Shown here: piece after piece, positions 10,947 through 15,627 of the stretch
Position numbering within the stretch: the first letter of the stretch is position 1
Layout: the number at the start of each line of letters is the position of its first letter
Assembly: GCF_902153245.2 (NCBI RefSeq)
Contig: NZ_CABFWF030000013.1
Location: 369,438-433,437, forward strand
Source: Pseudorhizobium endolithicum
GTDB lineage: Bacteria; Pseudomonadota; Alphaproteobacteria; Rhizobiales; Rhizobiaceae
DNA: 64,000 nt
Direction: 5' to 3'
Position numbers and translations under genes: made by a program
Notes under the pieces: model-generated
Told to the model about the DNA's origin: nothing
Seen by the model: the letters and a program-made list of their open reading frames with translations, nothing else
Database searches by the model: none

Positions 10947-12422
10947 ATGAGCCCGGCCATGAAAGACATAGCTTCCTCCCCCATCCACGTCGTCGGCGGC
11001 GGCCTCGCCGGCTCCGAAGCCGCCTGGCAGATCGCCCAGGCCGGCATACCCGTCATCCTCCACGAGATGCGCGGTGTTCGCGGCACCGATGCCCACAAGA
11101 CGGACGGCCTTGCCGAACTCGTCTGTTCCAACTCCTTCCGGTCGGACGACGCCACCTCCAACGCGGTCGGCGTCATCCATGCCGAGATGCGGCTTGCCGG
11201 CTCGCTCATCATGGCCTGCGCCGATCGCTACCAGGTGCCGGCCGGCGGCGCGTTGGCGGTGGATCGGGACGGCTTTTCGCAGGCCGTGACCAGTGCCATA
11301 GACGGCCATCCGCTCATCACGGTCCTGCGCGAGGAGATCCAGGGACTTCCGCCGAATGATTGGGATCTGGCGATCGTCGCTACCGGTCCCCTCACCTCGC
11401 CCTCGCTCGCCGCCGCGATCCAGGCCGAGACAGGCGAGGATTCGCTTGCCTTCTTCGATGCCATAGCGCCCATCGTCTACCGCGACTCCATCGACATGGA
11501 CATCTGCTGGTACCAGTCGCGCTACGACAAGGTCGGCCCCGGAGGTACGGGCAAGGACTACATCAACTGCCCGATGGACGAGGCGCAGTACAATGCCTTC
11601 ATCGATGCGCTCGTCGCGGGTGATACGGTGGGCTTCAAGGAATGGGAAGGCACGCCCTATTTCGACGGCTGCCTGCCGATCGAGGTCATGGCCGAACGGG
11701 GGCGCGAGACGCTCCGCCACGGGCCGATGAAGCCCATGGGGCTGACGAATGCCCATAATCCGACCGTGAAGCCGTATGCCGTCGTCCAACTGCGACAGGA
11801 CAATGCCCTCGGCACGCTCTACAACATGGTCGGCTTCCAGACGAAGCTGAAATACGGGACGCAGGCGGAGATCTTCCGGATGATTCCCGGTCTGGAAAAG
11901 GCCGAGTTTGCGCGGCTCGGCGGCTTGCACCGGAACACCTACATCAACTCGCCGATGCTCCTCGACGGAACGCTGACGCTGAAGAGCCGGCCCGGCCTGC
12001 GTTTCGCCGGCCAGATCACCGGCTGCGAAGGCTATGTGGAAAGCGCAGCCATCGGTCTGCTCGCAGGCCGTTTCGCGGCGGCGGAACGCAAAGGCATCGT
12101 ACTGGCGCCCCCGCCGGCAACAACCGCCCTGGGCTCCCTGCTCGGCCATATTACGGGTGGGCATCTCGTTTCCGACGACGAGCCCGGCAAGCGCTCGTTC
12201 CAGCCGATGAACATCAACTTTGGCCTGTTTCCCGAACTCGAACCGGGTGCGATCACGAAGCCGGAGGGAATCAAGCGCTTCCGCGGCAAGGACAAGGCGA
12301 TCATGAAGAAGCAGTTGATGGCCGCGCGGGCGCTCCGCGACTGCGCCGGCTGGCTTGAAGCTGCGCGCTCGGTCGGTCAACCGGCCTCGTCTGCGGCACT
12401 CCTGTCGGCCGATGCAATGTAG
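10947..12422 (+). CDS. trmFO: tRNA uridine-54 methyltransferase, folate/FAD-dependent
   Basis: Makes ribothymidine at position 54 of tRNAs using methylenetetrahydrofolate and FADH2. 491 residues. The N-terminal Rossmann motif [17 protein letters not shown] binds [15 protein letters not shown] carries a conserved active-site cysteine segment; [39 protein letters not shown] and [27 protein letters not shown] are characteristic. Start is ATG 10947 or the in-frame ATG 10959 (MKDIASS). The last 46 bp overlap the convergent gene on the other strand. Confidence 0.96.
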
Positions 12423-12901: not shown

Positions 12902-13753
12902 TCAGAACCGCTGGAGAAATTGCGCTTTCGCCATGCGCAACTGCCGGCGCCACTGCGGCGGCTGGATGTTCCGCTCGAATATCTGCGCGCCCGCCCGCAT
13001 CGCCTTGCGCAGAACCGGCTCGGCCAGGGCGACCGGCAGGAAGGCAGGGAACACTGCTTTCGACACCGCCCCTGCGCTTCTCGCCTTTGCGAGATGCTCC
13101 AGCCCCAAACCCGCGAAAGCTTCTATCGCAGCCGATATTCGGGCGGGATCCCGACCCGCCAGGAATGCATCGCGATCAAGACCGGTGGCATTCAATATCT
13201 CCAGGGGCACATAGAGCTGGCCGCGCTGACGGTGCAGGGGCATCAGGAGCAGGAGCCCGGCAATCGCCTGCGCAACGCCGGCGTGTCCGGCAGCCTCGGC
13301 GGAGCGCGCCGCGTCGTCAGCCGACAGCACAAGGCTCGCCAACTGGATGAGAGCAGAGGCCGTCTCGCCGGCATAGCCTTCCAGCTCGTTTCGGGTCGAC
13401 AACGGATCGTCGTACAGATCCCCGATCCGCGCATCGATCATCGCGACGAGGCTTTGCCTAGGCAAGCGGTAGCGGTCGACTTCCTCCAGAAGGGCCGCCG
13501 CCACCGGGTTGGCGCCCGCATCACCGTGGGCGCTACCCTCCAGCAGATCGCGCCACCACTGCAGGCGTATTTCTCCGGGCAGAGCCTCGCGGACCACATC
13601 GCGCACCCGAGCAAGCTCCGCATTGAAGGCATAGAGGGCCGCGAGCGGCCTCCTCTTGTCCTGCGGCGACAGCAGACAAGCGAGATATCGGTCGCGATCC
13701 GTATCCCGCAGCGTTGCGAGAAGTATATCCAGATCGGTAGCCAAGTCCGTCAC
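12902..13753 (-). CDS. Squalene/phytoene synthase-fold protein, NDUFAF6-like
   Basis: 283 residues of the squalene/phytoene synthase superfamily: RDRYLACLLSPQDKRRPLAALYAFNAELARVRD at the N-terminus, RLQWWRDLL, and IDARIGDLYDD in place of the second Asp-rich motif. The first catalytic DxxxD motif is replaced (AFNAELARVRD), so prenyl synthase activity is doubtful. This is the pattern of NDUFAF6/C8orf38, a mitochondrial respiratory complex I assembly factor with alphaproteobacterial relatives. It begins with GTG overlapping the TGA of the upstream NDUFAF3-like gene (GTGA), so translation is probably coupled. Confidence 0.8.
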   Translation of the reverse strand: MTDLATDLDILLATLRDTDRDRYLACLLSPQDKRRPLAALYAFNAELARVRDVVREALPGEIRLQWWRDLLEGSAHGDAGANPVAAALLEEVDRYRLPRQSLVAMIDARIGDLYDDPLSTRNELEGYAGETASALIQLASLVLSADDAARSAEAAGHAGVAQAIAGLLLLMPLHRQRGQLYVPLEILNATGLDRDAFLAGRDPARISAAIEAFAGLGLEHLAKARSAGAVSKAVFPAFLPVALAEPVLRKAMRAGAQIFERNIQPPQWRRQLRMAKAQFLQRF

Positions 13754-14136
13754 ACCGCGACAAGAGCCGCGGCCACCGCGCGCGATTCCGCCAGCATGAC
13801 ATTATAGGTTCGCACGGCGGCTCCCGTGCTCATCGGGTCGGAGGCGATGCCGCGCGCCTTGAGTGCCGCCTTCAGCGACTGCGGCAAGGGGCGCAATTCG
13901 CGACCGGTGCCGACAAGCAGCACCTCGATCTCGCCCGCCTCGTCGAGAACCTTCGACAGCGCCTCGGCGTCCAGTGCGTCGCCCTCGGTAAAGTCCCAGC
14001 CGTGAATGCCGGAAGGCAGGCACAGGAGCGAGCCGCGATGCGACATCTCCGCGAAGCGGAAGCCCCCATTGCCGTAGGCATCAATCGGCGCACGGCCCGG
14101 AAAATGGGCGTCGCGAATCTCAATTCCTTTTGGCAC
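13750..14136 (-). CDS. Mth938/DUF498-family protein, NDUFAF3-like
   Basis: 128 residues, DUF498 (Mth938) fold: DAYGNGGFRFAEMSHRGSLLCLPSGIHGWD, then VLLVGTGRELRPLPQSLKAALKARGIASDPMSTGAAVRTYNVMLAESRAVAAAL. The human homologue NDUFAF3 is a complex I assembly factor, and family members are reported next to protein-translocation genes in alphaproteobacteria. Start GTG 14136 has GGAGG nine bases upstream. It lies 71 bp after yajC and overlaps the NDUFAF6-like gene by 4 bp. Confidence 0.88.
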   Translation of the reverse strand: MPKGIEIRDAHFPGRAPIDAYGNGGFRFAEMSHRGSLLCLPSGIHGWDFTEGDALDAEALSKVLDEAGEIEVLLVGTGRELRPLPQSLKAALKARGIASDPMSTGAAVRTYNVMLAESRAVAAALVAV

Positions 14137-14207
14137 CGTTTCGTGCCTCCATAGAGTTCATCCGCCGTCGAGGCAGGCGGCGCGCACCGAGCGCGCCACC
14201 TCTCGGA

Positions 14208-14558
14208 TCAGGATGCGGCAGCGTCGGTCTTGACCGGTTCGCCCTTCACCCGCACTTCGGCGACATAGGCACGCAGCGCGCGGACCTTCACGCCTTCGGC
14301 GATTTCAACCTCGACCTCGTTGTCGTCCACGACCTTCGTGACCTTGCCGGCAATGCCGCCACCAAGAACGACGTTGTCGCCGCGGCGGATGTTGGAAAGC
14401 ATTTCCTGGCGCTTCTTCATCTGGGCGCGCTGGGGACGGATCAGGAAGAAGTACCAGACCACCATGAGCGGTGCGAAGAGGAAGAGCATTTCGAGACCGG
14501 ACCCCATCGCAGACGGAGCTGCACCCTCGGCCTGGGCAAATGCTTCAGTTATGAACAT
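14208..14558 (-). CDS. yajC: Preprotein translocase subunit YajC
   Basis: Auxiliary Sec translocon subunit that associates with SecDF. 116 residues from ATG 14558 (MFITEAFAQAEGAAP), which has GGAG seven bases upstream; frames open further upstream are unlikely. One transmembrane helix (LEMLFLFAPLMVVWYFFLIRPQRAQMKKR) with the diagnostic FFLIRPQxxxxK border, then a beta domain (IRRGDNVVLGGGIAGKVTKV). Unusually, secDF does not follow; the next gene is the NDUFAF3-like one. Confidence 0.95.
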   Translation of the reverse strand: MFITEAFAQAEGAAPSAMGSGLEMLFLFAPLMVVWYFFLIRPQRAQMKKRQEMLSNIRRGDNVVLGGGIAGKVTKVVDDNEVEVEIAEGVKVRALRAYVAEVRVKGEPVKTDAAAS

Positions 14559-14754
14559 CGAGTACTCCATGATTGGCAGGAGCCCAATGCCCCCCTTCTT
14601 GCAAGTGGCCGGAATATAATTGCGATCACCCCGAATGCAACAGAAACAGGTTCCAGCCCGTACCAAATCCACGACTGCCTGGCTTTTGAAGATGAAAGGG
14701 CCGTGCTAACGGCGGCAGGGTCACCCATAGACGCGCGCCACCAGGAGGAACCAC

Positions 14755-15627
14755 GTGACCGACGAACTCAACCAGCGCCTTCTCGCCGAGGTGAAGCGCC
14801 TGGCGGACGCCCTCGAGCGGCTTGCGGGGCCGCCGCCCTCCGAAAACGACTGGTCCTCCGCTGATTGCTTCGTCTGGATTCCGGCCAACCAGCGCCTTCA
14901 ACCTGTCCCCCGCCCGAACAGGGTTGCCTTGTCGCTGATCCGCGGCGTCGACCATGTGCGGGACATCCTGCACGAGAACACGCTGCGGTTCGCCGAGGGT
15001 TTTCCCGCCAACAACGTCCTGCTCTGGGGCGCGCGCGGCATGGGGAAATCTTCCCTGGTGAAGGCTGTCCACGAGGATGTCCGCGCGTCAACCGGCAGCT
15101 CGCTGAAACTGGTCGAGGTGCACCGCGAGGATATCGCGTCCCTGCCTGCCCTTCTCGATATCCTCAAGACGTGCGGTCATCGCGTCATCGTCTTCTGCGA
15201 CGACCTGTCCTTCGACCACGACGACACGGCCTACAAGTCCCTCAAGGCGGCGCTCGATGGCGGCATAGAGGGCCGGCCGGAGAATGTGCTCTTCTATGCC
15301 ACGTCCAACCGCCGCCATCTGCTGCCGCGCCACATGATGGAGAACGAGCAGTCGACAGCCATCAATCCCTCCGAGGCCGTGGAAGAGAAAGTATCGCTGT
15401 CGGATCGCTTCGGCCTGTGGCTCGGCTTCCACAAGTGCAGCCAGGACGACTACCTGGCCATGATCGACGGCTATGCCAGCCACTTCCGCCTTCCGCTTGA
15501 GCGCGAGACGCTGCACCACGAGGCACTCGAATGGGCGACGACACGCGGCGGCCGCTCGGGACGCGTGGCCTGGCAGTATATTCAGGACCTTGCAGGCCGG
15601 CTGCGGGTGCCGCTGCACGCCGGATAA
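14755..15627 (+). CDS. P-loop AAA-type ATPase of unknown role (DUF815/COG2607)
   Basis: 290 residues starting GTG 14755, with AGGAGGAA seven bases upstream. Walker A WGARGMGKSSLVKA near residues 92-105, Walker B VIVFCDDLSFD near 149-159, and a sensor-like FYATSNRRHLLP near 180-191 mark an AAA-type ATPase of the DUF815 family; YEALxW-type winged regions near the end may bind partners. The biochemical role is not established. Divergent from yajC across 196 bp, followed by a terminator. Confidence 0.9.
   Translation: MTDELNQRLLAEVKRLADALERLAGPPPSENDWSSADCFVWIPANQRLQPVPRPNRVALSLIRGVDHVRDILHENTLRFAEGFPANNVLLWGARGMGKSSLVKAVHEDVRASTGSSLKLVEVHREDIASLPALLDILKTCGHRVIVFCDDLSFDHDDTAYKSLKAALDGGIEGRPENVLFYATSNRRHLLPRHMMENEQSTAINPSEAVEEKVSLSDRFGLWLGFHKCSQDDYLAMIDGYASHFRLPLERETLHHEALEWATTRGGRSGRVAWQYIQDLAGRLRVPLHAG

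Follow-up and report, generated by a model that had tools for sequence, protein, structure and literature searches.

Probable replacement of the yajC-linked SecDF1 of Pseudorhizobium endolithicum by a SecDF2 preceded by a likely ApdP-type open reading frame

The yajC locus and the SecDF gene of the genome

When secDF is missing from its place beside yajC, has the gene been moved, has it been lost, or has another gene taken over its role? This question is raised by a window (the whole 64,000-nucleotide stretch of DNA that was analysed) from Pseudorhizobium endolithicum, in which genes for relatives of the mitochondrial complex I assembly factors NDUFAF3 and NDUFAF6 follow yajC directly. A reading made from the sequence alone had concluded that this lineage has moved or lost the expected SecDF, and had linked the cluster to membrane insertion of complex I subunits. 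Below, SecDF1 denotes the clade of yajC-linked copies and SecDF2 the clade of unlinked copies. The features of the locus are as follows, in window coordinates.

10947..12422, plus strand: trmFO, converging on the cluster (NF003739, 673.2 bits; cut-off 262)
12902..13753, minus strand: gene for the NDUFAF6-like protein (SQS_PSY family, 283 aa; PF00494, E 1.2e-52)
13750..14136, minus strand: gene for the NDUFAF3-like protein (DUF498, 128 aa; PF04430, E 1.4e-30)
14137..14207, minus strand: 71-bp junction, the site of the linked secDF1 in relatives, with no SecDF remnant seen
14208..14570, minus strand: yajC (PF02699, E 4.4e-25; TIGR00739, 77.8 bits; cut-off 44.2)

The GTGA overlap of the NDUFAF6-like and NDUFAF3-like genes and their 71-bp distance from yajC, both noticed in the sequence-only reading, are exact. 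The open frame of yajC spans 14208-14672, but judged by eye translation more likely begins at one of two internal ATG codons, 14570 or 14558; 14570 is taken as the probable start. A gene for a DUF815 AAA-type ATPase (14755-15627) diverges from yajC. The Pfam matches of the SQS_PSY, DUF498 and YajC proteins all lie far above their cut-offs, and a profile search of the whole genome returns a single YajC match. The SQS_PSY protein falls below every NCBIfam cut-off for squalene and phytoene synthases (the best, HpnD, gives 94.1 against 278.6 bits); a string scan, in which active-site columns were left unaligned, finds DxxxD strings in it.

With three SecDF1 proteins and the SecDF of this genome as queries, tblastn returned no match in the interval between yajC and the DUF498 gene, in agreement with the earlier claim that no trace of secDF exists there. 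The gene order from which the window departs, as given in the sequence-only reading, is real: in 10 of the 47 other genomes of the genus, the YajC and DUF498 domain matches stand about 2.7 kb apart with a SecDF match within, and in one more (G008) the genes lie on two contigs. An assembly gap was considered as the cause of the missing gene and rejected, as the sequence runs without a break and the short spacing recurs in 36 of the 47 other genus genomes.

Where, then, is SecDF encoded? The genome is 99.99% complete, and a PF02355 search finds a single gene of SecDF length, C14:92521-95058, on a different contig from the window. Two weaker PF02355 matches fall in open frames, 1060 and 1124 aa long, that appear to encode RND transporters. 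A yajC-linked SecDF1 query matches the C14 gene at 51% identity, and across the whole genome it gives only two further matches, of 22-25% over about 160 residues. Thus, no SecDF1 was found in this genome. The C14 protein exceeds the cut-offs of PF02355, PF22599, PF21760 and PF07549, which cover the SecD/SecF C-terminal domains, P1 domains and GG motif. Its residues D424, D731 and R765 align with D340, D637 and R671 of Thermus thermophilus SecDF, which have a role in proton transport, and the residues aligned to these three are conserved in all 131 SecDF rows of our alignment. The NCBIfam model NF011315, with a cut-off of 1249 bits, is passed by the SecDF1 that was tested (1468.6) and failed by the C14 copy (925.1), which is also in the wrong position for a canonical SecDF1 and lies outside the linked clade. 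Searching the rest of the genome, as the sequence-only reading had proposed, therefore yielded a SecDF of another kind. The reading that we favour, at a probability of roughly 0.78, is that an ApdP-gated spare SecDF2 replaced the lost linked SecDF1 and is now the sole SecDF of this genome.

Two SecDF clades and the loss of SecDF1

A 131-row tree separates two clades: one unites all 65 unlinked copies, including that of the window genome (SH-like support 100, stem 0.56), and the other the family's 54 yajC-linked copies without exception (support 99). These supports come from FastTree without bootstrap and carry long-branch warnings, and the deep root is poor, as the outgroup does not fall on one side of a branch; one copy cut by a contig end (L188, of G008) was excluded. 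A fused SecDF of similar length and the same main domains is what a relocated operon secDF1, changed by drift, would look like. Yet the linked clade does not include the C14 gene, and both forms enter the tree from 35 genomes, so that relocation strikes us as very improbable. Of the two fates named in the sequence-only reading, loss is borne out, with the linked SecDF1 gone and probably replaced, whereas the sole SecDF is a separate paralogue and not a moved gene.

The SecDF2 clade also includes three named Pleomorphomonadaceae genomes beside those of Rhizobiaceae. Their loci (L068, L073 and L103) each show an upstream open reading frame (ORF) ending in RAPP, and their SecDF2 copies, like those of two other genomes (G057 and G073; loci L206 and L208), group with that of Agrobacterium vitis inside Rhizobiaceae SecDF2. 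The placement of these sequences makes it likely that apdP and secDF2 were transferred as a unit, and SecDF2 has probably moved between families. Because of such movement, the SecDF2 tree is not a species tree.

The absence of SecDF1 from the yajC locus is repeated widely. Within the genus, the linked gene is absent in 37 of 48 genomes, the window included, and the short spacing amounts to 142-221 bp between YajC and DUF498 domain matches. The sequence-only reading had allowed that secDF might normally lie elsewhere in close relatives; this is half true, as 36 of the 47 other genus genomes have only an unlinked secDF. Eleven genus genomes have SecDF1, eight together with SecDF2 and three (G018, G021 and G026) without it. 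Single-copy genomes of either kind are therefore found inside this one genus, with 36 SecDF2-only members besides the window genome and three SecDF1-only members.

A sample of 121 genomes from the family gives, among the matches listed, 30 with both forms, 13 that have SecDF2 but whose yajC locus lacks any SecDF, 76 with the SecDF1 type only and two without a SecDF of useful length. These states were read by hand from the searches, from which a strongly diverged extra copy elsewhere could escape; one genome (G167) owes its two-copy score to SecDF2 fragments that lie on separate contigs, two in number, and loci were fetched to establish linkage for 20 of the 76. One genome scored as SecDF1-type only (G164) has two SecDF copies, on contigs C84 and C190, one of them beside yajC; both share about 50% identity with SecDF2 of the window genome, and the extra copy is perhaps a further duplicate. 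Among 30 named genomes chosen for holding SecDF2, a set that may overlap with the G-numbered one, the linked gene is absent in 10 (for example Pseudorhizobium pelagicum, Neorhizobium galegae, N. lilium and Metarhizobium album) and both forms are present in 20 (for example Rhizobium johnstonii 3841, R. phaseoli, Agrobacterium vitis, Ciceribacter and Pleomorphomonas). The SecDF2-only state requires six changes on a tree of YajC plus DUF498, at least four of them forced by starred branches, on a weak tree (91 rows, 243 columns, 16 of 88 branches starred) that omits G008 and G156, where a gene is missing from the stretch, and G123, which has no DUF498.

Several relatives hold what may be stages of SecDF1 decay. 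G105, a two-copy genome of 3.6 Mb in a group of small genomes, retains a SecDF1 of a short kind. In G189 (L282; 1.5 Mb), the space separating yajC from DUF498 holds a SecDF1 pseudogene of 1568 bp, each frame of which is interrupted by 25-32 stops, with SecDF1-matching pieces still in order. The corresponding interval of G169 is 624 bp and has a weak SecDF match (E 8.6e-5; E-values for these remnants were computed for one short stretch each), and tblastn finds no SecDF match in the gaps of G084, G150, G154, G171 and G085. Ordered in this way, the loci would represent a stepwise series. Judged by family and genome size, the small genomes of this group may be Bartonella-like, and G123 may be Liberibacter-like. 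In six SecDF1 rows from two-copy genomes (L125, L126, L127, L128, L245 and L246), 78-92 residues are missing from the first periplasmic region, at about positions 65-160 as numbered in SecDF of the window genome, where alignment with T. thermophilus SecDF also fails.

Constraint on the two copies and the complex I question

It could be argued that SecDF is dispensable in these lineages, that decay of SecDF1 was neutral and that SecDF2 serves some other function. It would fit this explanation, and speaks against a simple replacement, that SecDF2 is under no stronger constraint where it is the only copy (median dN/dS of 0.153 versus 0.157 in two-copy relatives). However, a SecDF of useful length is absent only from G143 and G188 among the family matches listed, and neither can be judged, as G188 is 68% complete and yajC of G143 lies at a contig end. 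Moreover, the three motor residues are present in every SecDF row, and no pair that was run exceeds a dN/dS of 0.33. We regard dispensability as improbable and continue to favour replacement by SecDF2. The suggestion that SecDF1 is junk in two-copy genomes is likewise not supported: its motor residues are intact in 36 of 36 rows, and dN/dS ranges from 0.02 to 0.33 across 13 pairs, in rough pairwise estimates for which several dS values exceed 1.

Which of the two copies appears to be the main one depends on the lineage. In one large two-copy clade, the rate of change in SecDF1 is about 3- to 5-fold that of SecDF2 in the same genome pairs (dN, SecDF1/SecDF2: 0.334/0.063, 0.393/0.095, 0.113/0.025, 0.271/0.096 and 0.322/0.113). 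In the genus of the window, two of three pairs show slower change in SecDF1 (0.057/0.174 and 0.062/0.114) and the third shows equal rates; the median dN/dS of SecDF1 in its two-copy members is 0.086, lower than that of SecDF2. SecDF1 therefore looks like the main copy in these members, a point against the favoured reading, and the reversal of the contrast between clades indicates that the apparent main copy differs by lineage. Four further pairs comprise three with about equal rates and one (G186/G182) in which SecDF1 is twofold faster.

The remaining genes of the cluster bear on a different proposal, namely that yajC, NDUFAF3 and NDUFAF6 form a module for membrane insertion of complex I and that SecDF loss reflects changed complex I biogenesis. 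Human NDUFAF3 and NDUFAF6 are taken here to belong to the DUF498 and SQS_PSY families, and such a bacterial gene neighbourhood was reportedly noted by Saada in 2009. A sample of 143 genomes from the class contains 130 with the complex I 49-kDa family, a family that also catches hydrogenase-type relatives; 78 of these have DUF498, and none of the 13 others does (Fisher p 1.7e-5, a value that ignores relatedness). This co-occurrence does not bear on SecDF. In addition, DUF498, and mostly the SQS_PSY gene, still sit beside yajC after SecDF1 loss. Both observations would suit the proposal, but the 13 genomes that lack the 49-kDa family are all small (0.8-1.8 Mb), and the family is present without DUF498 in 52 genomes of the class sample, as well as in three near-complete genomes of the same order (G050, G077 and G123). 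In the last of these (L280; 1.5 Mb), yajC and the NDUFAF6-like gene are adjacent, there is no DUF498 match, and the complex I 49-kDa subunit is present.

More directly, the 49-kDa family is found in 31 of 32 genomes spanning the SecDF states, including all 14 that have SecDF2 only, and the one miss is a genome that is 67% complete. Complex I presence thus offers no contrast between SecDF states and was rejected as an explanation of SecDF1 loss, which tracks the second SecDF without a visible change in complex I. A role for DUF498, or for the NDUFAF3-NDUFAF6 pair, in complex I is compatible with these data, but a module whose changed biogenesis accounts for SecDF loss seems unlikely. The persistence of the adjacency between yajC and the NDUFAF3/6 genes after SecDF1 loss implies that this linkage is independent of SecDF.

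The ORF upstream of secDF2

Replacement by SecDF2 acquires a regulatory aspect from the ORF that precedes the gene on contig C14, outside the window.

L005:6022-6438, directly upstream of secDF2: RAPP-ending ORF, ApdP-type (by motif and place)

The ORF ends in HPRAPPLLA, 83 bp before secDF2, has a hydrophobic N-terminal run visible by eye (WWPGLTLALLLAAFLGLVAG) and matches no family in Pfam or NCBIfam. From its motif and position, it is likely an arrest peptide of the ApdP type. RAPP is not known as the arrest sequence of VemP, the Vibrio peptide considered below. Among named SecDF2 loci, 71 of 79 have R[AG]PP within the last 16 residues of the upstream ORF, compared with 2 of 3336 other ORFs from the same loci. 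Seven of the remaining eight end in HGPP, and L055, the SecDF2 locus of a Neorhizobium MAG, has no clear motif. A looser pattern is found at 73 of 81 loci, its eight misses again being seven HGPP endings and L055; L092 was excluded from the 79, and four of eight G-numbered loci (L212, L213, L215 and L216) yielded no gene start under the pattern used and were left unjudged. Plain tblastn recovers the ORF at only 10 of 80 loci, and its conservation is one of C-terminal motif and place.

Other candidate partners of secDF2 were rejected. Within 6 kb, genes for IclR and two TRAP transporter genes of this locus recur at none of the 80 named loci, and the ADH, putA and Lrp genes at two, although putA and Lrp are situated, in part or in full, close to where the 6-kb flank ends. 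The SDR gene recurs at 13 of 80, at about 30% identity, and the downstream VTT-domain gene at 18 of 80. Between apdP and secDF2, no hairpin that would mask the Shine-Dalgarno sequence was found in six species (fold z-scores from -0.17 to 1.43), which counts against the favoured reading. The published account of ApdP reports no predicted hairpin either (PMC7897499).

Among the genomes tested, the peptide is retained wherever both SecDF copies are. A RAPP-like ORF is present in 49 of 49 two-copy genomes tested (29 G-numbered and 20 named), a set that excludes the eight two-copy members of the window's genus; the search of the 29 used open frames from 40 residues, and the ORFs of G105 and G158 end 300 and 245 bp before the gene. 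Among genomes for which both states were determined, none lacks the peptide while keeping SecDF1 and SecDF2. SecDF2-only genomes are of two kinds. The RAPP ORF is present in the window genome, 10 named genomes, G009, G121 and G184, and no motif was found, even with a wider pattern, in G123, G128, G084, G150, G154, G085, G171 and G169. Seven of these eight are small (1.1-2.0 Mb), and six of the seven cluster in the YajC plus DUF498 tree, so that they represent few independent events, namely that group, G123 and G128. G189, in which the SecDF1 pseudogene persists, has an upstream ORF ending in QAPP.

Replacement by SecDF2 could have proceeded as follows. A lineage would gain a second SecDF, SecDF1 would become redundant and be lost several times, and ApdP would be lost afterwards in some lineages. 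SecDF2, which we infer to perform the job of SecDF1, would then be the cell's sole SecDF and the motor, driven by protons, that provides the pulling force for the Sec translocon. By analogy with the characterized peptide, the RAPP peptide of the window genome may stall the ribosome and regulate secDF2: slow export would leave ribosomes stalled on RAPP and raise secDF2 translation, and active export would pull on the nascent peptide and release the stall. In two-copy relatives, SecDF2 would serve as a conditional spare; in the window's lineage, where the sensor peptide appears to have been kept after SecDF1 loss, the same circuit would govern the only SecDF. It is conceivable, at somewhat less than even odds, that SecDF1 loss in this way made an emergency circuit into a homeostat, with the arrest peptide setting the level of the sole SecDF, and that elsewhere the peptide was lost later. 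SecM, which regulates SecA in E. coli, offers a parallel for an arrest-peptide homeostat.

These genomes represent cases in nature where the primary gene has disappeared and a putatively controlled SecDF would have to carry the load. Their relatives show the other states (SecDF1 only, both forms, SecDF2 with the sensor and SecDF2 without it), and this range makes it testable whether the sensor is still needed without a backup relation. If the homeostat interpretation is true, the family holds stages of a backup becoming the main gene, with its sensor kept or discarded. The loci also show that yajC and SecDF can be encoded apart, and that absence of SecDF from the locus leaves the neighbourhood of yajC and the NDUFAF3/6 genes intact. 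In the open-access literature (subscription papers and supplements aside), we found no report of primary SecDF loss that leaves an ApdP-controlled copy alone.

Comparison with known systems places the arrangement most closely beside ApdP, whose pairing with SecDF2 is already known. In published reports, ApdP precedes an alphaproteobacterial SecDF that is 'presumably the secondary' one, and the Sinorhizobium medicae member arrests translation (PMC7897499; also PMC10987492, PMC12992588). As in that description, the fused SecDF2 of the window genome is preceded by an ORF with RAPP near its C-terminus, and a hydrophobic stretch visible by eye near the N-terminus of this ORF may correspond to that of ApdP (PMC7897499, PMC10987492). 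The window genome differs in that the SecDF2 there is presumably secondary and here is the only SecDF, and in that arrest was shown for the S. medicae peptide, whereas the peptide of the window genome is known from its sequence. The mitochondrial NDUFAF3/NDUFAF6 system shares its protein families with the window, where the two genes are adjacent, and the bacterial counterparts are known here from family matches. Two SecDF forms, the second under arrest-peptide control, also occur in the VemP-SecDF2 system of Vibrio; there, however, both forms are kept, one sodium-dependent and one proton-dependent (PMC7897499). Streptomyces coelicolor likewise has two SecDF homologues of different ancestry and partly redundant function, but there both forms are kept, one split and one fused (PMC4139356).
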